64,000 bases of DNA from the NCBI GenBank assembly GCA_016184365.1, contig JACPCW010000074.1, positions 1 to 64,000 on the forward strand, given 5' to 3'. A model generated the notes under the pieces. That model saw only the letters and a program-made list of their open reading frames with translations. It did no database searches and was not told the DNA's origin. Every line of letters begins with the position of its first letter. The first letter of the stretch is position 1. Below are positions 46,710 to 63,317 of this stretch, in pieces. The position numbers and the translations under genes are program-made. This DNA is from Candidatus Rokuibacteriota bacterium. Lineage in GTDB: Bacteria; Methylomirabilota; Methylomirabilia; Rokubacteriales; CSP1-6.

Positions 46710-46729
46710 TGTACTATTCGAGTGGTACA
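46710..46729 (+). promoter_or_regulatory. 20-bp palindromic motif, copy 1
   Basis: TGTACTATTCGAGTGGTACA upstream of the glucan synthase start. Confidence 0.75.
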
Positions 46730-46787: not shown

Positions 46788-49700
46788 GTGTCCGGTTTCC
46801 CTCTCCAGAAAGGCGGCTTGCCGATCGCTCCGAAGTCCCTCGAGCCTCCGATCCGTGCCGAGATCTTCGGCATCGAGCGCTTCGAGCAGCACGCCGAGAC
46901 CCTCGCGGCCGCCCAGCGCGTGGCCGGACCGTCCGGCCGCGGCAAGCGCTTGCTGTCGCGCGTGGAAGACAACGGCCGCGTGCTGCGCGACTCGTACCGC
47001 GCGATCGCCGAGGCGATCCGCGAGGAGCGCGCGATCACCCCCGCGGCGGAGTGGCTCGTCGACAACTTCCACGTGGTCGACGAACAGCTGCGCGAGATCC
47101 GCGACGATCTACCGCCCGGGTACTACCGCGAGCTGCCCAAGCTCGCCGACGGACCGCTCGCCGGATATCCGCGCGTCTACGGGCTCGCATGGGCGTTCGT
47201 CGCCCACACCGACAGCCGCTTCGATCCCGAGACCCTCCGGCGCTTCGTGCGCGCCTACCAGCGCGTGCAGCCGCTGACGATCGGCGAGCTGTGGGCGGTG
47301 GCGATCACGCTGCGCGTCGTGCTCGTGGAGAATCTTCGCCGCCTGGCGGAAGCCATCGTGCGCGGGCGCGCCGCGCGCCAGGAGGCCGACGCGCTGGCCG
47401 ACGATCTGCTCGGCGTCGGCGACGGCGTGGTCACGCCCGCGGCGAAGGCGCTCGCGCACTACGAGGGCGGCCCGCTGATGACGGCGTTCGCGGTGCAGCT
47501 CGTCCAGCGGCTGCGCGAGCAGGATCGCGCCGTGACGCCGACGCTCGTCTGGCTCGACCGGCGGCTCGAGGCGCAGGGCACGACGGCCGAGGACATCGTC
47601 CGCGTCGAGCATCAGCGGCAGGCCGCGATGAACGTGACCGTCCGCAACGTGATCCTGAGCATGAGCCTGATGTCCGCGCTCGACTGGACGGAGTTCTTCG
47701 AGGCCGTCAGCCTCGTCGACGACGTGCTGCGCACGGGCCCGAACTACGGCGCGATGGACTTCGCGACGCGCGACGCCTACCGTCATGCCGTCGAGGACCT
47801 CGCGCGGGGATCGAGCCGCCCCGAGCAGGACGTGGCGCGCGAGACCGTGGCGCGAACGCGCCCGGCGGATGCGAGCGGCGACGATCGGCGAACCGATGCC
47901 GGCTTTCACCTGATCGGCGCCGGACGCGCGACCCTCGAGCTGGCGCTCGGCTACCGCGCGCCGCTGATGCGCCGGCTGCTTCGCGGCTATCTCGCGGCGG
48001 CGACGCCCGGGTATCTGGGAATGATCGCCGTGCTGAGCGGCCTCGTGTTCATGCTGCCCGTCCTCGCGGCCGGAGCTTCCGGCGTGGGGCCGATGGGCCT
48101 GCTGCTGCTCGCGTTGCTCGCCGTCATCCCGGCCTCGGACCTCGCCATCGCGCTGCTCAATCGAAGCGTCACGGCGCTCGTCCCGCCGCGCGCGCTGCCG
48201 CGACTCGAGCTCGGCGACGGCATCCCGCCGTCGCTGCGCACCCTGGTCGTCGTGCCGATGCTGCTGACCGATCGCGCCGAAGTCGCCGAGCAGGTCGAGC
48301 GGCTCGAAGTGCACTACCTGGCGAATCCGGACGGCGACGTTCGCTTCGCCGTGCTGTCCGACTGGACGGATGCGCCGTCGGAGGCGATGCCGGGTGACGA
48401 GGCAGCGCTCGGCGCCGCGCGCGAGGGGATCGCCCGTCTCAACCGGCGCCACGGCCTGGTGCCGGATGGCGGCGAGCGGTTCCTGCTCTTCCACCGCCGC
48501 CGGCTCTGGAACGAGAGCGAGCGGGTCTGGATGGGATGGGAGCGCAAGCGCGGCAAGCTCCACGAGCTGAATCGGCTTCTGCGCGGAGCGGCCGACACCA
48601 GCTTCGTGACCGGCAGCACGCCGCCCGCCGGTGTCCGTTACGTCGTCACGCTCGACTCGGACACGCGGCTGCCGCGGGGCGCGGTGCAACGGCTGGTCGG
48701 CACGCTCGCGCATCCGCTCAACCGGCCACGCTTCGAGCCCGCCGGACGGCGCGTCGTCGAGGGGCACGCCGTGCTGCAGCCGCGCGTGACGCCGCCGCTC
48801 CCCGGACTCGAAGGCTCGTTCTTCCAGCGGCTGTCGTCCGGTCCGGCGGGCATCGATCCATACGCCGCGGCCGTGTCCGACGTGTACCAGGACCTCTGGG
48901 GCGAAGGCTCGTACACGGGCAAAGGCATCTACGACGTGGACGCCTTCGAGACGGCGCTGGCGGGCCGGGTGCCGGAGAACGCGCTGCTGAGTCACGATCT
49001 GTTCGAAGGCGTGTTCGCGCGGGCCGGGCTCGTCACGGACGTCGAGCTGTTCGAGAGCGCGCCATCGCACTACGGCGTGGCGGCCGCGCGGCAGCACCGG
49101 TGGGCCCGGGGCGACTGGCAGCTCCTGCCGTGGATCGTCCGCAGCCGTATCCCGGTCATCGGACGCTGGAAGATGCTGGACAACCTGCGCCGCACGCTGT
49201 CCGCGCCGGCCGCCTTCCTGACCCTCGTGGTCGCGTGGACGCTGCCCGGCACGTCACCGCCGCTCTGGAGCGCCTTCATCCTGGCGACCGTGGCCGTGCC
49301 GGCGGTCCTGCCGGTGCTCGGCGGCGTGATCCCTCGCCGACGCGGCATCTCGAAGCGCAGTCATGGCCGCGCCGTGGGCCGAGACGTGGTCCAGGCGACT
49401 TCACACGTCGGACTCGCCGTCACGATGCTCGCGTACCAGGCCTGGCTGATGAGTGATGCGATCGTCCGGACGCTCGCGCGCCTGTACGTCACGCGCCGCC
49501 GGCTGCTGGAATGGATGACCGCGGCGCAGGCGAAAGCCGGGCTGCGTCTCGATCTGCGCGGCTTCGGCCAGCGCATGGGCGGCGGGCTCGCGCTCGCCGC
49601 CGCGGCGGCGCTCGCGGTGGCGTGGGGCCGGCCCGACGCGTGGTCGGCCGCGCTGCCCTTCGTGCTGCTGTGGCTCGCGGCGCCGGCGATCGCCCGATGG

Positions 49701-52700
49701 ATCAGCCTGCCGCGCAGCACCGCGCCGTCCCGGCCGCTCGCGCCGACGGAGGTGGAAGCGCTCCGGTTGATCGCGCGGCGCACGTGGCGGTTCTTCGCGA
49801 CCTTCGTCGGTCCCGACGACCACGCGTTGCCGCCCGACAACTTCCAGGAATCGCCGAGCCCGGTGATCGCGCATCGCACGTCGCCGACGAACATCGGGCT
49901 GTACCTGCTGTCCACGGTGGCGGGGCGCGATTTCGGCTGGCTCGGCACGGTCGAGACCGTCGAGCGGCTCGAGGCGACGGTCGCGACCATGAACTCGCTC
50001 GACCGCTTCCGCGGCCACTTCTACAACTGGTACGACACCGAGCACGGCCGTCCGCTCGAGCCCATGTACGTCTCGTCGGTCGACAGCGGCAATCTCGCCG
50101 GCCATCTCATCGCGCTGGCGCACGCCTGCGAGGAGATGATCGCCCGCCCGCGCCTCGACCGCGCGGCGCTCGCCGGCATCGACGACACCGCGCGGCTCGT
50201 CGGCGTGTCCGCCGCGGCCGTCGGCGGCGCCCGCCACGGCGGCACCACGCACGACCGGCTGACGCAGGCGCTCGACGGCGTCGCGGCGGCGGTCCAGGAG
50301 CCCCCGCGCGACCCGTCGTCGTGGGGCGCGCGGCTGGCGGCGCTGCAGGCGCACGCGCGCGCGGTGCTGGACGCCGCGCACGCGTTCGTCGACGAGGACG
50401 CCGAGCGCGCGCGGACGGACGTCCTCGTCTGGGCCGAGGCGCTCTGCGCCACCGTCGACAGTCACGCGCGTGACCTCGCCGCGACCGACCCGCTGGCTCC
50501 GCGCCTCTCCGCGCTCGCCGGGCACGCACGCGCCCTGAGCCGCGGCATGGACTTCGGCTTCCTCTTCGACCCGATGCGGAAGCTGTTCGCGATCGGCTAT
50601 CGCGTCGCGGACGGCAGCCTCGATCCCGGCCGGTACGACCTGCTCGCGTCGGAAGCGCGGCTCACGAGCTTCGTCGCGATCGCGAAGGGCGACGTCCCCG
50701 TGTCGCACTGGTTCCGGCTGGGCCGGTCCCTCACCCCGGTAGAACAGGACTCGGTGCTCGTCTCCTGGTCGGGGTCGATGTTCGAGTACCTGATGCCCGC
50801 GCTCGTCATGCACACGCCGGCGGGCAGCCTCCTCGAACAGACGTCCCGGCTCGTCGTGCGCCGGCAGATCGCGTACGGCGCCGAGCGTGGGGTGCCGTGG
50901 GGCGTCTCGGAGTCCGGCTACAACGTGCGCGACCGCCACATGACCTACCAGTATTCGAACTTCGGCGTGCCCGGGCTCGGGCTGCGACGGGGACTCGGCG
51001 AGGACGTCGTCGTGGCGCCGTACGCCACCGGACTGGCAGCGATGATCGACCCGGGGGCCGCGCTCCGTAACTTCCGGCGGCTGGCGGCGGCGGGCGCGAG
51101 CGGGGCGTATGGCTTTTACGAGGCGGTCGATTACACGGCGCCGCGCCTGCCCGAGTCGGCCGAGCTCGCGGTGGTCCGCGCCTACATGGCGCACCACCAG
51201 GGCATGGTGATCGTCGCGATCGCGAACGCCCTCCACGACGGCGCGATGCGCGCGCGCTTCCATGCCGAGCCGAGCGTCCAGGCGACCGAGCTGCTGCTCC
51301 AGGAACGCACCCCGCGCGGCGTGGCGGTCGCGCGGCCGCGCGCGGAGGAGGTCGAGGCCGCCGGCGATGTGCGCGACCTCGTGCCGCCGGTCGAGCGGCA
51401 TTTCACGTCGCCGCACGCGTCGACGCCCCGCACCCAGCTCCTCTCGAACGGGCGCTACGCGGTCATGCTGACGGCGGCCGGCTCGGGGTACAGCCGCTGG
51501 CGCGATCTCGCGATCACCCGCTGGCGTGAGGACGTCACGCGTGACGCGTCGGGGACGTACGTGTTCGTCCGCGACGCGGACAGTGGCGCGACCTGGTCGG
51601 CCGGGTACCAGCCGTGCGGCACCGAGCCAGACTCGTACGCGGTCACGTTCTCCGAGGATCGCGCCGAGATCGTCCGGCGCGACGGGGACATCACCACCAC
51701 GCTGCAGGTCATCGTGTCGCCCGAGGACGACGCCGAGGTCCGTCGCGTCTCGCTGACGAACTTCGGCGCGAGGAGCCGTGACGTCGAGCTGACGTCGTAC
51801 GCGGAAGTCGTGCTGGCGCCCCCCGCGGCCGACGCGGCGCATCCGGCGTTCTCCAACCTGAGCGTGCAGACGGAGTGCGTCCCCGAGCTCGACACGCTGC
51901 TGGCCCGGCGCCGGCCGCGGTCGCCCGGTGAGACCGAGGTCTGGCTCGCCCACGTGGCGGTCGTCGACGGCGAAGCGGCCGGAAGCCCGGAGTGGGAAAC
52001 CGATCGCGCGCGGTTCCTCGGGCGCGGGCGCGGCATCCGGAATCCCGCCGCGGTGCTGGACGGGACTCCGCTCTCCGGCACCGTCGGCGCGGTGCTCGAT
52101 CCGATCGTGAGCCTCCGGCGGCGCGTGCGGCTTCGTCCGGGCGCGACCGCGCGCATCACGTTCTCGACGCTCGTCGCGCCGTCGCGCGCCGAGGCGCTGG
52201 GCCTGGCCGAGAAGTATCGCGACGCGTCGACGTTCGACCGCGTCCGGACGCTCGCGTGGACGCAGGCGCAGGTCCAGATGCACCACCTCGGCATCGGTCC
52301 GGACGAGGCGCACCTCTTCCAGACCCTCGCCGGTCGCGTGCTCTATTCCGACCGGGCGCTCCGGCCGGCGCCGGACGTGCTCGCGCGTCACGCCGGCGGT
52401 CAGGACGCGCTCTGGGCGCACGGGATTTCCGGCGACCTCCCGATCGTCCTCGTGCAGATCGACGAGCCCGAGGACATCGGCATCGTGCGCCAGCTGCTTC
52501 GCGCGCACGAGTACTGGGGGATGAAACGTCTCGCGGTCGACCTCGTGATCCTCAACGAGCGCGCGCCGTCCTACCTGCAGGACTTGCAGTCGGCGCTCGA
52601 GACGCTCCTGCGCACGAGCCGGTCGATCGGACCGGACGACGGACACGCGCCCCATGGCCACGTGTCGATCGTGCGAGGGGACCGCGTGACGGCGCGGCAA

Positions 52701-55268
52701 CGCGACGTCCTCCAGGCCGTCGCGCGCGCGGTGCTGTCGGGCCGGCGCGGGACGCTGGCCGAGCAGCTCGCGCACGCGCAGCGCCCCGACAGCGCGCCGG
52801 CGGCCGCGCCGCGGCGAGCGACGGCGACGAAACCCGAGCCCGGCGCAGCGGTCACGTCGCGGGATCTCGAGCTCTTCAACGGGCTCGGCGGCTTCGCGGC
52901 GGACGGGCGCGAGTACGTGACGATCCTCGAGCCGGGCGCATGGACGCCGGCGCCCTGGATCAACGTCATCGCGAATCCGGGGTTCGGCTTCCAGGTCTCC
53001 GAGTCGGGCGCGGGGTACACGTGGTCGATCAACAGCCGCGAGAACCAGCTCACCCCGTGGTCGAACGATCCGGTCCTCGACCCGCCGGGCGAGACGATGT
53101 ACGTGCGCGACGAAGAGACGGGCGCGGTGTGGGGACCGACGGCGCTGCCGATCCGCGAGCCCTCGCCGTACGTCGTCCGGCACGGCCAGGGGTACACGCG
53201 CTTCGAGCACGTCTCGCATGGCGTGTCACTCGAGCTCCTGCAGCTCGTGCCGGTCTCCGACTCGATCAAGCTCTCGCGCCTGACGCTGACGAACCTCTCG
53301 GGCCGCGCGCGACGGCTGTCGGTGACCGCCTATGTCGAGTGGGTGCTCGGGGTCTCGCGCAGCGACGCCGCGCCGCACGTCGTCACCGAGGTCGACGGAG
53401 CGACGGGCGCGATCTTCGCGCGGAATTCGTGGAGCCGCGAGTTCGGCGGCCGCGTCGCGTTCGCGGATCTCGGCGGGCTCCAGACGGCGTGGACCGCGGA
53501 CCGCACGGAGTTTCTCGGGCGTCACGGCACCATGGATCAGCCGGCGGCGCTCCGGCGAAAGGATCGTCTCTCGGGACGGGTCGGCGCCGGCCTCGATCCG
53601 TGCGGCGCCCTGCAGGCGACGTTCGACCTGCCCGCTTCCGCGCGAATGGACGTCGTGTTCTTCCTCGGCGAAGCGGCGAGCGCCGGGCAGGCCCGCGAGC
53701 TCATCGAGCGCTATCGAACGTCGGACGTGGCCGTCGTCCTCCAGGCGGTCCGCGCGGGCTGGGACGACCGGCTCGACACCGTGCAGGTGACGACGCCCGA
53801 TCGGTCCCTCGACCTGCTGCTCAACCGCTGGCTGCTGTACCAGACCCTCGCGTGCCGGGTCTGGGCGCGCGCGGCGTTCTATCAGGCCGGCGGGGCGTAC
53901 GGCTTCCGCGATCAGGTCCAGGACGTGATGGCGCTCGCGATCGCCGATCCCGCGATCGCGCGCGAGCATCTGCTCCGCGCCGCGGCGCGGCAGTTCACCG
54001 AGGGCGACGTCCAGCACTGGTGGCATCCGCCCGGCGGTCGCGGCGTGCGGACCCGGATCACGGACGATCTCCTCTGGCTGCCGTACGTCGCGCGCCGTTA
54101 CGTCGACGTCACGGGTGACGAGGGCATCCTCGACGAGATCGTCGCCTTTCTCGACGGGCCCACGCTCGATGCCGGGCAGACGGAGTCGTACTTCGAGCCG
54201 CGCGTCTCGGACGAGCGGGCCGCGCTGTACGAGCACTGCGCGCGCGCCCTCGACTGGAGCCTGACGGTCGGCGCGCACGGCCTGCCGCTCATGGGCACGG
54301 GCGACTGGAACGACGGGATGAACGAGGTGGGCGCCGGGGGGAAGGGCGAGAGCGTCTGGCTCGGATGGTTCCTGCACGTCGTCCTGTCGGAATGGGCGGA
54401 CGTGGCCGACGCGCGCGGCGACGGCAAGCGCGCCGACCGGTGGCGGGACCACGCGCGCGCGCTCGGAGCATCGCTCGAGCGCGAGGCCTGGGACGGTGAC
54501 TGGTACCGGCGCGCGTACTTCGACGACGGCACGCCGCTCGGCTCCGCCACCAACGACGCATGCCGCATCGATTCGATCGCGCAATCCTGGAGCGTCATCT
54601 CGGGCGCGGCCGACCCTGCCCGCCAGGCGCGCGCCATGGCGGCGGTCGACGAGCGCCTCGTCCGTCGCGCCGATGGCCTCGTGCTGCTGTTCACGCCGCC
54701 GTTCGACGACACGCGCCTCGAGCCGGGCTACATCAAGGGCTACGTGCCCGGCGTCCGTGAAAACGGCGGCCAGTACACGCACGCGGCGATGTGGGTGGCC
54801 ATCGCCTTCGCCATGCTCGGCGACGGCGACGCGGCCGCCGAGATTCTCGCGCTGTCGAATCCGATCAACCGCTCCCGCACCGCGGCGGACGTGCGGCGGT
54901 ATCGCGTCGAACCCTACGTCGTCGCGGCCGACGTCTACGCCGAGCCGCCGCACGTGGGGCGCGGCGGCTGGACGTGGTACACGGGGTCCGCGGGCTGGAT
55001 GTATCGGGCGGGGCTCGAATCGGTGCTCGGATTCCGGCTGCGGGGCACGCGGCTCGTGATCGACCCGTGCATCCCGCGCGCGTGGCCCGGGTTCGAGATC
55101 GCGTTCCGCTATCGCTCGGCGCGCTATGCGATCGTCGTGAGCAATCCGCGCGGCGTGTCGAGCGGCGTGTCGTCGGTGGACGTCGATGGCGTCGTCCTCG
55201 CCAGTGCCCCCGCCATCATGCTCGCGGACGACGGCCAGACGCACCGCGTCCGGATCGTGCTCGGCTGA
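46788..55268 (+). CDS. ndvB: Cyclic beta-glucan synthase (GT84 / glycoamylase-like / GH94), NdvB-like
   Basis: About 2,830 aa; YVVTLDSDTRLPRGAVQRLVGTLAHPLNRP (GT), DNFQESPSPVIAHRTSPTNIGLYLLSTVAGRDFGWL (glycoamylase-like), GTGDWNDGMNEVG...GGWTWYTGSAGWMYRAGLESVLGFR (GH94). Confidence 0.9.
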   Translation: MSGFPLQKGGLPIAPKSLEPPIRAEIFGIERFEQHAETLAAAQRVAGPSGRGKRLLSRVEDNGRVLRDSYRAIAEAIREERAITPAAEWLVDNFHVVDEQLREIRDDLPPGYYRELPKLADGPLAGYPRVYGLAWAFVAHTDSRFDPETLRRFVRAYQRVQPLTIGELWAVAITLRVVLVENLRRLAEAIVRGRAARQEADALADDLLGVGDGVVTPAAKALAHYEGGPLMTAFAVQLVQRLREQDRAVTPTLVWLDRRLEAQGTTAEDIVRVEHQRQAAMNVTVRNVILSMSLMSALDWTEFFEAVSLVDDVLRTGPNYGAMDFATRDAYRHAVEDLARGSSRPEQDVARETVARTRPADASGDDRRTDAGFHLIGAGRATLELALGYRAPLMRRLLRGYLAAATPGYLGMIAVLSGLVFMLPVLAAGASGVGPMGLLLLALLAVIPASDLAIALLNRSVTALVPPRALPRLELGDGIPPSLRTLVVVPMLLTDRAEVAEQVERLEVHYLANPDGDVRFAVLSDWTDAPSEAMPGDEAALGAAREGIARLNRRHGLVPDGGERFLLFHRRRLWNESERVWMGWERKRGKLHELNRLLRGAADTSFVTGSTPPAGVRYVVTLDSDTRLPRGAVQRLVGTLAHPLNRPRFEPAGRRVVEGHAVLQPRVTPPLPGLEGSFFQRLSSGPAGIDPYAAAVSDVYQDLWGEGSYTGKGIYDVDAFETALAGRVPENALLSHDLFEGVFARAGLVTDVELFESAPSHYGVAAARQHRWARGDWQLLPWIVRSRIPVIGRWKMLDNLRRTLSAPAAFLTLVVAWTLPGTSPPLWSAFILATVAVPAVLPVLGGVIPRRRGISKRSHGRAVGRDVVQATSHVGLAVTMLAYQAWLMSDAIVRTLARLYVTRRRLLEWMTAAQAKAGLRLDLRGFGQRMGGGLALAAAAALAVAWGRPDAWSAALPFVLLWLAAPAIARWISLPRSTAPSRPLAPTEVEALRLIARRTWRFFATFVGPDDHALPPDNFQESPSPVIAHRTSPTNIGLYLLSTVAGRDFGWLGTVETVERLEATVATMNSLDRFRGHFYNWYDTEHGRPLEPMYVSSVDSGNLAGHLIALAHACEEMIARPRLDRAALAGIDDTARLVGVSAAAVGGARHGGTTHDRLTQALDGVAAAVQEPPRDPSSWGARLAALQAHARAVLDAAHAFVDEDAERARTDVLVWAEALCATVDSHARDLAATDPLAPRLSALAGHARALSRGMDFGFLFDPMRKLFAIGYRVADGSLDPGRYDLLASEARLTSFVAIAKGDVPVSHWFRLGRSLTPVEQDSVLVSWSGSMFEYLMPALVMHTPAGSLLEQTSRLVVRRQIAYGAERGVPWGVSESGYNVRDRHMTYQYSNFGVPGLGLRRGLGEDVVVAPYATGLAAMIDPGAALRNFRRLAAAGASGAYGFYEAVDYTAPRLPESAELAVVRAYMAHHQGMVIVAIANALHDGAMRARFHAEPSVQATELLLQERTPRGVAVARPRAEEVEAAGDVRDLVPPVERHFTSPHASTPRTQLLSNGRYAVMLTAAGSGYSRWRDLAITRWREDVTRDASGTYVFVRDADSGATWSAGYQPCGTEPDSYAVTFSEDRAEIVRRDGDITTTLQVIVSPEDDAEVRRVSLTNFGARSRDVELTSYAEVVLAPPAADAAHPAFSNLSVQTECVPELDTLLARRRPRSPGETEVWLAHVAVVDGEAAGSPEWETDRARFLGRGRGIRNPAAVLDGTPLSGTVGAVLDPIVSLRRRVRLRPGATARITFSTLVAPSRAEALGLAEKYRDASTFDRVRTLAWTQAQVQMHHLGIGPDEAHLFQTLAGRVLYSDRALRPAPDVLARHAGGQDALWAHGISGDLPIVLVQIDEPEDIGIVRQLLRAHEYWGMKRLAVDLVILNERAPSYLQDLQSALETLLRTSRSIGPDDGHAPHGHVSIVRGDRVTARQRDVLQAVARAVLSGRRGTLAEQLAHAQRPDSAPAAAPRRATATKPEPGAAVTSRDLELFNGLGGFAADGREYVTILEPGAWTPAPWINVIANPGFGFQVSESGAGYTWSINSRENQLTPWSNDPVLDPPGETMYVRDEETGAVWGPTALPIREPSPYVVRHGQGYTRFEHVSHGVSLELLQLVPVSDSIKLSRLTLTNLSGRARRLSVTAYVEWVLGVSRSDAAPHVVTEVDGATGAIFARNSWSREFGGRVAFADLGGLQTAWTADRTEFLGRHGTMDQPAALRRKDRLSGRVGAGLDPCGALQATFDLPASARMDVVFFLGEAASAGQARELIERYRTSDVAVVLQAVRAGWDDRLDTVQVTTPDRSLDLLLNRWLLYQTLACRVWARAAFYQAGGAYGFRDQVQDVMALAIADPAIAREHLLRAAARQFTEGDVQHWWHPPGGRGVRTRITDDLLWLPYVARRYVDVTGDEGILDEIVAFLDGPTLDAGQTESYFEPRVSDERAALYEHCARALDWSLTVGAHGLPLMGTGDWNDGMNEVGAGGKGESVWLGWFLHVVLSEWADVADARGDGKRADRWRDHARALGASLEREAWDGDWYRRAYFDDGTPLGSATNDACRIDSIAQSWSVISGAADPARQARAMAAVDERLVRRADGLVLLFTPPFDDTRLEPGYIKGYVPGVRENGGQYTHAAMWVAIAFAMLGDGDAAAEILALSNPINRSRTAADVRRYRVEPYVVAADVYAEPPHVGRGGWTWYTGSAGWMYRAGLESVLGFRLRGTRLVIDPCIPRAWPGFEIAFRYRSARYAIVVSNPRGVSSGVSSVDVDGVVLASAPAIMLADDGQTHRVRIVLG

Positions 55269-55561: not shown

Positions 55562-55782
55562 GCGCTTGTCGAGCGCGCCCCGGCATCCGGCCGTGGTGTC
55601 CAGCCTCCGGCCGCGTACTCCGTCAAGGCCTGCACGAACACGGCGCGCAGCGTCGTCCCGTCGCGAACGGCGCGGGCCCGCGCCGCGCGCCGAAGATCGC
55701 GTGAGACGCCGTGCACGCGGTAGATCCGCGTCGGGCCGACCGGAGCGGGCACGCCGGGCAGCGACGTCTGCCGCGGCATCAC
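55558..55782 (-). CDS. Small RHH-like protein
   Basis: RIYRVHGVSRDLRRAARARAVRDGTTLRAVFVQALTEYAAGG resembles RHH antitoxin core. Confidence 0.5.
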   Translation of the reverse strand: MMPRQTSLPGVPAPVGPTRIYRVHGVSRDLRRAARARAVRDGTTLRAVFVQALTEYAAGGWTPRPDAGARSTSA

Positions 55783-56609
55783 TTGCCCGCGCCGATGGAG
55801 ACGGGGATGCGGACGGTCTCCTCGCGGTACGGCGACGGGATGTAGACGAGCTCGAGCCGCATCTCCTTCAGGTTCTTCGCCTTCAGCGCCTCGGTGGGAA
55901 AGTCGACGTCGAGCGCCTCGATGGCGTCCTGCCCCGGGTCGAGCCGCTCGCTCCCGGAGGCGGTGAACTTGAAGCTGGGCGCGCTCCGCGGCATCTCCAT
56001 CTCGATCGGGCGCCCGGCGGTATCGAGGTAGTGGAGCTTCGCCCCGACGAGCCGGACCGTCTGGTTCGTGGAGGTGTTCGTCAGCCGGAGCATGCCCGTG
56101 AGCCTGGCGGCCGAGACGACCTGGGCGGAGCCCGTGTCCACGCGCTCGACGACCTTCAGGTTGTCGATCTCACCGGCGACGATGCCGGCCTTCACCTTCA
56201 TCGACGCCGGCGTCACCGCGTAGGTCCGGTCCTCGACCATCGCGGCCGTCGCGGCGGGCTGCTGCGTGGGGCCGAGGGTCAGCCAGAGCACCGTGACCAC
56301 GGCCGCGGCGGCCAGACCCCATTGCCACACCGCCGGCTTCCGCTCGCCGGCACCGTCCGTCGGGCGGAGCTTGCGCTGCGCGACGATCGCCAGCGCCGCG
56401 CCGACGAGCGCGATCACCGCCGCCAGCACGAGGCTCGAGCCCGAGACGATCCCCATGGCCCGGAGCATCCAGCTCAGCCCGACGCTGCCGAGGAGGCCGA
56501 GCGTGATGTCCCACCGCCGCCCGGATCCGCCCTGCGCCACGACCATGCCGGCGAGCCCGCCGGCCAGCAGCCCCACGAGAATCCACGTCGCGAAAATCCC
56601 CAGCGTCAT
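55779..56609 (-). CDS. GlsB/YeaQ/YmgE-like membrane domain with long C-terminal region
   Basis: MTLGIFATWILVGLLAGGLAGMVVAQGGSGRRWDITLGLLGSVGLSWMLRAMG... then an extra-membrane domain. Confidence 0.75.
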   Translation of the reverse strand: MTLGIFATWILVGLLAGGLAGMVVAQGGSGRRWDITLGLLGSVGLSWMLRAMGIVSGSSLVLAAVIALVGAALAIVAQRKLRPTDGAGERKPAVWQWGLAAAAVVTVLWLTLGPTQQPAATAAMVEDRTYAVTPASMKVKAGIVAGEIDNLKVVERVDTGSAQVVSAARLTGMLRLTNTSTNQTVRLVGAKLHYLDTAGRPIEMEMPRSAPSFKFTASGSERLDPGQDAIEALDVDFPTEALKAKNLKEMRLELVYIPSPYREETVRIPVSIGAGK

Positions 56610-56650: not shown

Positions 56651-56670
56651 TGTATGCTTACATTAGTACA
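56651..56670 (-). promoter_or_regulatory. 20-bp palindromic motif, copy 2 (minus orientation)
   Basis: Reverse complement reads TGTACTAATGTAAGCATACA; contains the -10 of TTGACA-N17-TAATGT on the minus strand. Confidence 0.75.
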
Positions 56671-56692
56671 GTTGACCTCCGGTGTCAACTAC

Positions 56693-56712
56693 TGTACTAC
56701 TTGAGTACTACA
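56693..56712 (+). promoter_or_regulatory. 20-bp palindromic motif, copy 3
   Basis: TGTACTACTTGAGTACTACA. Confidence 0.75.
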
Positions 56713-56743: not shown

Positions 56744-57134
56744 TTGCCCGCCGGCACGACTGAAGTCGTCGCCGTCGTCGATCTCGGCTCGACGGCCGTG
56801 GGCTTTCTGCTCGCGCGGGTCGTCCGGGCGGGACGCCGCAAATCGCGAACGGCTCCTCGAACCGCTCCGGCGCCGCGAGGGCATCGACGTGCGCACCGCG
56901 GTCGAGAACGGCAAGGAGGTGACGGTGCTGGTGGAGCTGCAGGCGCGCTTCGACGAGGAGGCGAACATCCGCTGGGCGCGTGCGCTCGAGGCCGTCGGGG
57001 CCCACGTCGTCTACGGCGTCGCCGGCTTCAAGACGCACTGCAAGGCGTGTCTCGTCGCGCGCATCCGGGCGGACGGCGCGCCGGCGCTCCGGTCCCAGGA
57101 CCGCCTGTACGAGGTGACGGGCGCGGAGCGGTAG
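56744..57134 (+). pseudogene. Fused remnants of ppx/gppA-like and polyphosphate kinase (ppk1)-like genes
   Basis: [26 protein letters not shown] (Ppx/GppA start) then, in another frame, [57 protein letters not shown] (PPK1 segment). Confidence 0.7.
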
Positions 57135-58520: not shown

Positions 58521-58796
58521 CTACGCGGCGATCAGCGGGGCGCGCCAGAACATCCGCTGAGCGGCGATCGCCAGCGCCGCGCCGGCAAACCCGACCCCGA
58601 ACATCCCCGGCATCCCGGCGTCGATCGAGAAGACGGTCCAGACGGCCGCGCCCGCGACCACGCTGCCGGCGAGACCGACGGCCACGTCGTGAAGAAAGCC
58701 GTAGCCGCCCGCGCGCGAGCTCGCTTCGGCGACCCAGCCGGCCATGAGCCCGGCGAGCCCCAGCATGGGGCCCATGTGCACGATGTCATCGAGCAT
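58521..58796 (-). CDS. GlsB/YeaQ/YmgE-like small membrane protein
   Basis: [84 protein letters not shown]. Confidence 0.72.
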
Positions 58797-58860
58797 GACG
58801 TGACCGCCTTTCCGTGTCTGTATGCCCAGGGTAGGACGGACCGGAGTGTCTGTCAACGAG

Positions 58861-58880
58861 TGTACTATTTCAGTGATACA
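58861..58880 (+). promoter_or_regulatory. 20-bp palindromic motif, copy 4
   Basis: TGTACTATTTCAGTGATACA upstream of groES; TTGACA-N17-TACCCT on the minus strand nearby. Confidence 0.78.
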
Positions 58881-58923: not shown

Positions 58924-59228
58924 ATGACTCAGGCCACGAAGACCATCCTCCGCCCGCTCCACGACCGCGTGCTCGTCAAGCGCCTCGCCGCGCAGGACGA
59001 GAAGCACGGCAGCCTCATCATCCCCGACACCGCCAAGGAAAAGCCGCAGGAGGGCCAGGTGATCGCCGTGGGCCCCGGCCGGGTGACCGACGACGGCACC
59101 AAGCTGCCCCCCGCGCTGAAGCAGGGCGATCGCATCCTCTTCGGCAAGTACTCCGGCAGCGAGGTCACGCTGGACGGCGAGGAATTCCTCGTCATGAAGG
59201 AGGACGACGTCCTCGGGGTCGTCGGCGC

Positions 59229-59232
<4 letters not shown>
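58924..59232 (+). CDS. groES: Co-chaperonin GroES
   Basis: [46 protein letters not shown]...[33 protein letters not shown]. Confidence 0.97.
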
Positions 59233-60809
<1,577 letters not shown>

Positions 60810-61791: not shown

Positions 61792-62205
61792 TCAAGCCGG
61801 TTCGCGAGACTCGAGAAGGCGCAGCGCAGCCGAACGGTTGTGCTCGAGGAAGTCGCCCGCGCGCTGATGACGCGCGCGCCTCCACCAGCCGCCCAGGACG
61901 ACCAGCGAGAGCGCGATCACGTTCAGCGTGACCGGCAGGATCTTGCCCCGCGTCGACACGGTCGACAACGAGTAGCCGAGCGTCCCGGCCAGGAGCAGCG
62001 GGACCAGCACCACCGCCGGCGGCGGCCAGACGCGGCGCCACCAGCGAAGCAGGCCATCGCCGAACTCTCCCTCGAGCCGGTGGTGGACGACCGCCCACAC
62101 GACGAACGCGGCCACGAAGAGCGCGGGCATCCATTCGTGCAGCCAGATCACGCTGGTGACGATGAGGAGCACGCCGGCCGCGCGCCGCCGTTCCAGGCCG
62201 CTCAC
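61792..62205 (-). CDS. Small membrane protein
   Basis: GTG start VSGLERRRAAGVLLIVTSVIWLHEWMPALFVAAFVVWAVVHHRLEGEFGDGLLRWWRRVWPPPAVVLVPLLLAGTLGYSLS; GTGA overlap with desaturase. Confidence 0.65.
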   Translation of the reverse strand: MSGLERRRAAGVLLIVTSVIWLHEWMPALFVAAFVVWAVVHHRLEGEFGDGLLRWWRRVWPPPAVVLVPLLLAGTLGYSLSTVSTRGKILPVTLNVIALSLVVLGGWWRRARHQRAGDFLEHNRSAALRLLESREPA

Positions 62206-62969
62206 CCTCGAGGCTCGCGGTTGGCGGGAACGCGCACGGGCTCGCCAACGACCATGGCCAGCCGCATCGCCGCCAGGGCGCGGATCACCAGCCACGACGG
62301 ATCGAACTCGAGCCGCCGCATGCTGAACTTCGGCGCGCGTGGATGCGCGTGATGATTGTTGTGGAGACTCTCCCCGGCCGTCAGCCACGCCAGCACCGTC
62401 GAGTTGTACGCGGTGTTGCCGAAGTTCTGTGCCCCTCGCCAGTGTCCGAGCCCGTTGATGAGCGGCGCCGCGACGAAGACGTAGAGGACGGCATGGAGCA
62501 GCGCCGCCAGGAGACCGGGGACGACGCCGAGCACGACGCAGAGCAGGGCAATGCCGAGCGCGGGACCGACCAGACCACGCGAGAAGGCGACACGATCCAG
62601 CCAGTCCGGCGCGAGGTCGCGCGCGAACTTCGCGATCGTGTCCGGGTTGCGCGCTTCCCGGATGTAGTAGACGACGTTCAGGAGCTGGACGCGCCAGAAC
62701 CCGAGGACGAGCGGGCTGTGCGGATCCCCCTCGCGGTCGGTGAACGCGTGGTGTTTGCGATGGACCGCGACCCACTCCTGGCGGCTCTGTCCCGTCGTGA
62801 TCCAGAGCACGATCCGGAACAGCACGTCCGCGCCGGGCGTCACGACGAGCGCCCGGTGCGCGAGCGCCCGGTGCAGGTAGACCGACGTCGCGATCAGCGC
62901 CAGCTGGGTGACGGCCACCGCGACGACGGGAACGATCCAGATGTCGGACCACACGAACATTCCACTCAC
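62202..62969 (-). CDS. Fatty acid (acyl-CoA) desaturase
   Basis: Histidine boxes: HRALAH, HRKHH, HNNHH in YLHRALAHRAL, WVAVHRKHHAFTDREGDPHSP, ESLHNNHHAHPRAPKFS. Confidence 0.93.
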   Translation of the reverse strand: MSGMFVWSDIWIVPVVAVAVTQLALIATSVYLHRALAHRALVVTPGADVLFRIVLWITTGQSRQEWVAVHRKHHAFTDREGDPHSPLVLGFWRVQLLNVVYYIREARNPDTIAKFARDLAPDWLDRVAFSRGLVGPALGIALLCVVLGVVPGLLAALLHAVLYVFVAAPLINGLGHWRGAQNFGNTAYNSTVLAWLTAGESLHNNHHAHPRAPKFSMRRLEFDPSWLVIRALAAMRLAMVVGEPVRVPANREPRG

Positions 62970-62972
62970 GGA

Positions 62973-63317
62973 TCAGGCCTCCCCGCCGTCGTCCCGGTAT
63001 GGATCACGGTCCAGGCTCGGCGCGGAACCGTCGCCGAGGGACTCGCCATCGATCGTGATGAAGACGATGGCCTGCGGCCACGGCGCGCGATTCACCCAGA
63101 TGGCCGACGCGACCGATCCCGTACGCGTGTTCACGCCCTGCCAGAGACCACCGGCCGGACGGATATCGCGGCGGCTCGTCGTCATCTCGCGCTTGCATTC
63201 GTCGAAGCCGTCCTTCGACAGGGCGCCGATCACGTCGTCCGGCGCCGCCATCCAGCCCTGCTCCTGCTGGACCCAGTCCATCCCGCCCTGGCGGCGAAGG
63301 TCGTCGAGGCCGTGCAT
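62973..63317 (-). CDS. Hypothetical protein
   Basis: MHGLDDLRRQGGMDWVQQEQGWMAAPDDVIGALSKDGFDECKREMTTSRRDIRPAGGLWQGVNTRTGSVASAIWVNRAPWPQ. Confidence 0.55.
   Translation of the reverse strand: MHGLDDLRRQGGMDWVQQEQGWMAAPDDVIGALSKDGFDECKREMTTSRRDIRPAGGLWQGVNTRTGSVASAIWVNRAPWPQAIVFITIDGESLGDGSAPSLDRDPYRDDGGEA

Follow-up and report, generated by a model that had tools for sequence, protein, structure and literature searches.

Two 62-bp modules in the 64,000-nucleotide stretch of Candidatus Rokuibacteriota DNA analyzed here (the window) most probably belong to a local regulon under an autoregulated GntR-type regulator encoded at 63323-64366. The modules, R1 (56651-56712, TGTATGCTTACATTAGTACAGTTGACCTCCGGTGTCAACTACTGTACTACTTGAGTACTACA) and R2 (58819-58880, TGTATGCCCAGGGTAGGACGGACCGGAGTGTCTGTCAACGAGTGTACTATTTCAGTGATACA), are, on their sequence, real promoter-operator regions, and they are two of the four operator locations found in this gene cluster (46710, R1, R2 and 64380), where the initial annotation had seen R1 and R2. 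What the sequence shows directly, as described below, is where the sites lie, how specific they are genome-wide, how well they are conserved and that they co-occur with gntR.

Both modules were present exactly as first described, each 62 bp long, with a common TGTATGC start, a TGTCAAC box starting 10 bp 5' of the right palindrome and a TGTACTA...TACA end. Ungapped alignment of R1 and R2 gave 38/62 matches, against 17.0 +/- 3.6 for dinucleotide-preserving shuffles of R2, none of which (0/20,000) reached 38; when the best of 41 registers was taken the mean of the shuffles was 21.4. R2 also matched R1 better than any other 62-mer in the window did. The similarity is concentrated in the right palindrome (16/20) and in the TGTATGC and TGTCAAC boxes, while the central spacer taken alone showed no significant similarity (p = 0.07). 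R1 holds an additional perfect inverted repeat, AGTTGAC-N7-GTCAACT (56671-56691), which arises because its TTGAC boxes face each other; being absent from R2 and from relatives, it was rejected as an operator.

The operator consensus is TGTACTA-N6-TAGTACA, a 20-bp palindrome whose half-sites contain GT...AC. Across the entire 5.58-Mb assembly the palindrome pattern was found only at 46710, 56693 and 58861, all in this cluster, and the reversed-pattern control gave 0 matches in the same assembly; a less stringent search added the left site of R1 (56651). This left operator of R1 (TGTATGCTTACATTAGTACA, 56651-56670) is an exact match to a gntR-side class, TGTATGN7TAGTACA, and the right one (TGTACTACTTGAGTACTACA, 56693-56712) occurs in this genome only at the cluster, with 0 control matches. 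The left operator of R2 (TGTATGCCCAGGGTAGGACG, 58819-58838) is decayed, with two mismatches to the gntR-side class, and the right operator is TGTACTATTTCAGTGATACA (58861-58880). In both modules the spacing between operators is 42 bp, versus the usual 40 in relatives. A third operator location (TGTACTATTCGAGTGGTACA, 46710-46729) lies upstream of a gene for a GH94 cyclic-glucan-synthase-like protein. The operator of gntR itself (TGTATGCATATACTAGTACA, 64380-64399), of the left-hand class, is located just past the window edge.

A two-operator module that separates groESL from a divergent gene of the GntR family (~340 aa) was found in ~20 other Rokubacteria genomes, with the paired palindromes 40 bp apart in 19/30 modules and a gene like that for the R1 target GlsB276 (see below) often 3' of the divergent gntR. 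Allowing <=1 mismatch, TGTACTAYTNNARTRGTACA had matches in 23/57 family genomes, with 0 control matches in all 57, and the match regions that were opened turned out to be gntR/groESL loci. In 24 family genomes, ten had both a gntR orthologue and the palindrome, one had gntR without palindrome, none had the palindrome alone and 13 had neither (Fisher p = 5.6e-6, a value that overstates independence because the genomes are related); in the single exception the gene is cut by a contig end. When TGTACTA-N6-TAGTACA was searched in 60 genomes with <=1 mismatch, the placed matches were at this gntR, at its targets or at distant GntR paralogues, the matches in G058 and on G008:C99 being unplaced exceptions. 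Four such distant paralogues (36-39% identity; in G008, G018, G022 and G029) have the palindrome upstream, whereas none was found near several others. In one sister genus two operator pairs flank an inserted orf92-ftsH, one on the groESL side and the other, in most of those genomes, on the gntR side. One relative (L053:1-250, G038:C198) has TGTACTACAACAATAGTACA, with perfect outer half-sites, immediately 5' of a gene related to the desaturase gene of the window. Some other local factor might conceivably recognize the palindrome; none is as consistently linked to it as gntR.

The gntR gene (63323-64366, minus strand, G000:C127; 63323-64000 inside the window) spans the window edge and heads a gntR-orf114-desaturase run with its own operator upstream. 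Its product has 78% identity to the groESL-linked GntR proteins of relatives, which are ~330-350 aa long. By its DNA-binding domain the putative regulator is a member of the GntR family: the N-terminal domain PF00392 was detected above cut-off in orthologues from relatives (E 7e-13 and 1.3e-11), and in the motif LPSIRELA...NxNTxAR the Arg and Asn are invariant, both being kinds of residue for which contacts with G and A are predicted in the GntR family (PMC4494728). The C-terminus, about 200 residues, has no Pfam name and appeared as alpha/beta at ~residues 129-313 in a structure model of low confidence (mean pLDDT 64.7, pTM 0.43), so that its FolD-like and periplasmic-binding-like fold matches (TM about 0.3) are a mere hint. 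A Chloroflexi GntR protein (L116:4001-4963) aligned with 24% identity over query residues 1-279, and the domain architecture may therefore extend beyond Rokubacteria. Orthologues with 79% identity were also found on contigs labelled Deltaproteobacteria (L103, L105), labels that may be wrong. A search of the open-access literature returned no report on this GntR regulator, and none on how groEL is regulated in Rokubacteria.

Judged by site position, the predicted regulon would include groESL and GlsB91 (R2), GlsB276 with a small downstream ORF (R1), and gntR-orf114-desaturase (64380), and probably also the GH94 gene, via the site at 46710. R2 separates the minus-strand gene for GlsB91 (58524-58796) from groES (58924-59232, plus strand), which is followed by groEL (59229-60809, plus strand), the sole Cpn60 found in this assembly. 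The R1 target is the minus-strand gene for GlsB276 (55782-56609), which follows gntR in most relatives. The GH94 gene (46821-55268, plus strand; PF06165, PF17167, PF10091) shows homology to relatives from about 46821, and adjoins gntR or groEL in several of them. The gene after gntR, probably in the same operon, is orf114 (62976-63317, minus strand), present also after gntR-GlsB276 in several relatives, and next comes the fatty acid desaturase gene (62205-62969, minus strand; PF00487, E 4.9e-16). The first description of these loci had both minus-strand promoters driving GlsB-like membrane proteins from divergent regions. The targets are indeed both small membrane proteins (starts at 56609 and 58796), but the likeness to GlsB is weak: the two copies in the window had no significant Pfam match, and a relative of GlsB276 gave sub-threshold matches to PF04226 (E 0.0012) and PRK10457 (E 0.0017). 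The resemblance of GlsB276 to GlsB/Transgly_assoc lies in its N-terminus. The divergent layout is firm at R2, with GlsB91 on one side and groES on the other, and doubtful at R1, whose plus side has only decayed ppx/ppk-like remnants. These remnants (56744-57134, plus strand) consist of a short start that we interpret as Ppx/GppA-like and an 81-aa piece of the C-terminal domain of polyphosphate kinase (PF17941, E 3.2e-25), matched by a segment of a 686-aa ORF in one relative (L040).

The minus-strand promoters that had been proposed could be read at both modules: TTGACA-N17-TAATGT in R1 (-35 at 56688-56683, -10 at 56665-56660, within the left operator), with the same geometry in relatives, and TTGACA-N17-TACCCT in R2 (-35 at 58856-58851, -10-like element at 58833-58828, overlapped by the left operator), each with 9/12 consensus positions. 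Scanned strictly for sigma-70 promoters, the region returned none, neither the R1 nor the R2 minus-strand one, so these claims rest on conserved geometry and not on consensus. On the GlsB/gntR side, R1, R2 and many relatives share the arrangement TTGACn-N17-TANNNT, in which the -10 begins ~15 bp short of the module's outer end, and the predicted overlap of operator and -10 is kept in many relatives. The promoter of gntR follows the same plan (TTGACC-N17-TAGTAT, spacing counted by hand), with its -10 inside the 64380 site. In two relatives (L051 and L052; G002:C113 and G038:C171) the corresponding promoters are TTGACC/TTGACA-N17-TATTCT/TATTGT, again with the -10 inside the operator, and the ATG of gntR comes 2-3 nt after the operator, which suggests a very short leader or a leaderless mRNA. 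On the groES side, GTGGTACACT is conserved (GTGATACACT in R2) and holds a possible extended -10, TGn-TACACT. In R2 the end of the right operator plus the next two bases form TGA-TACACT, and TGG-TACACT is nearly invariant in the groES modules of relatives; the -35 on this side, ~18-19 bp upstream of the extended -10, is poor in most modules.

This geometry is such that a dimer on each site would cover or adjoin both -10 elements, in line with the operator block of the -10 that the initial annotation had suggested. We propose that a GntR dimer would bind each 20-bp palindrome, TGTACTA-N6-TAGTACA. In a full module, with two palindromes ~40 bp apart, the outer one would cover the GlsB/gntR-side -10 and the inner one would lie between the -35 region and the possible extended -10 of the groES-side promoter. 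Bound GntR would then block the GlsB-side, groES-side and gntR promoters, behaving as an autoregulated repressor, and would be released by a signal sensed in the alpha/beta C-terminal domain; binding, the direction of control and the signal are what we infer from the DNA. Control of GlsB91 could be weak, since the left site of R2 is decayed. The set coordinated in this way would comprise groESL, the two small membrane proteins, gntR-orf114-desaturase, probably GH94 and, in relatives, ftsH, and such a set of genes points to membrane or protein-folding stress. The same GntR could instead be an activator, or activate groESL while repressing its own side, as the position of the groES-side site between a poor -35 and the TGn-TACACT -10 would fit and as would be in keeping with GabR-type GntR proteins, which are capable of autorepression as well as activation (PDB titles). 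We consider this unlikely, given that in most modules the gntR/GlsB-side site lies over the -10, the classical position of a repressor.

The presence of groESL among the predicted targets of GntR calls for a comparison with the best-known control of these genes. Bacterial chaperonin genes are usually under HrcA/CIRCE or heat-shock sigma factors, and the module resembles the HrcA/CIRCE system in having a palindromic operator upstream of groESL at which repression is expected. That the palindrome upstream of groES could be a diverged CIRCE read by HrcA is in line with groESL being a classical target of this pair, with the HrcA encoded in this genome (C84:34912-35562) and with a faint likeness of GAGTGTA...TACACTC in R2 to CIRCE half-sites. 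It is nonetheless a very improbable explanation, and the operators were rejected as CIRCE/HrcA sites: no TTAGCACTC-N9-GAGTGCTAA was found within 3 mismatches anywhere in this genome, despite its HrcA, while most relatives carry CIRCE, and among the elements opened it mostly fronts another groESL, on other contigs and with a GroEL beginning MPKQLKF, whereas the gntR-linked copy has the TGTACTA palindrome. Moreover, genomes without a gntR orthologue have HrcA, yet no palindrome. The module thus differs from HrcA/CIRCE in operator sequence, in regulator family and, in relatives, in the groESL copy concerned. This assembly, 90% complete, has a single groEL where most relatives have more than one, which could reflect loss or an assembly gap.

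The initial annotation had taken R1 and R2 for one duplicated cassette, and in this respect it was only partly borne out: in gapped alignment R1 scores best with the gntR-side module of a relative (G030; score 31, versus 19 with R2), and R2 is closest to groES-side modules and not to R1. As neither is the closest match of the other, they resemble two functional classes more than recent copies, although a lineage-specific copy may still have been made, since the 42-bp spacing is common to both; multiplication of such modules is seen both here and in the genus that contains ftsH. The view that a single recent local duplication produced R1 and R2 as copies without any role in regulation could draw on their 38/62 identity, on the 42-bp spacing and on the TGTATGC and TGTCAAC boxes that both contain, but it is hardly credible for modules conserved at equivalent places in many genomes and not each other's best match.

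Among described regulators, those of the YtrA subfamily offer the nearest parallel to the proposed GntR-controlled regulon. YtrA-type structures (4ham, 3neu, 6sbs) were among the best matches to the DNA-binding domain of this GntR. YtrA of B. subtilis, PmtR of S. aureus and YtrASa of S. acidocaldarius (PMC6746942) resemble the proposed system in having a small local regulon, membrane-protein targets, a promoter-covering site and autoregulation, and the palindrome described here fits the sites of the YtrA type, in which GT and AC lie far from the centre (PMC4494728). However, the C-terminus of YtrA proteins consists of two helices and about 50 residues, against about 200 in this GntR, and their ABC transporter operon, which is typical of them though not universal, was not seen among the conserved neighbours examined (GlsB276, groESL, ftsH, GH94, orf114 and the desaturase); the length of the C-terminus speaks against membership of the subfamily. 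The targets of this GntR would also differ in including groESL and a divergent region with paired sites, the latter being rare for YtrA (PMC4494728). The PlmA subfamily was compared with this GntR by published description. PlmA and this GntR are of similar overall size. The DNA-binding domain of PlmA is described as close to those of YtrA and MocR, and the subfamily as exclusively cyanobacterial (PMC4494728).

A wider reading, which we advance tentatively as possible though somewhat short of probable, is that Rokubacteria have a membrane-proteostasis stress regulon run by an undescribed GntR subfamily, whose alpha/beta sensor may be periplasmic-binding-like. This subfamily would have taken over a dedicated second groESL free of HrcA, together with genes for a desaturase, GlsB-like proteins, FtsH and a cyclic-glucan synthase, and in the present genome the sole groESL may be under its control. 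The modules would represent a promoter-operator cassette that has been re-used and split by gene insertion, and the rarity of the operator lets the members of the regulon be listed straight from sequence. In an uncultured phylum about whose gene regulation hardly anything is known, a GntR-type regulator seems to be wired to a separate groESL and to membrane, lipid and glucan genes.
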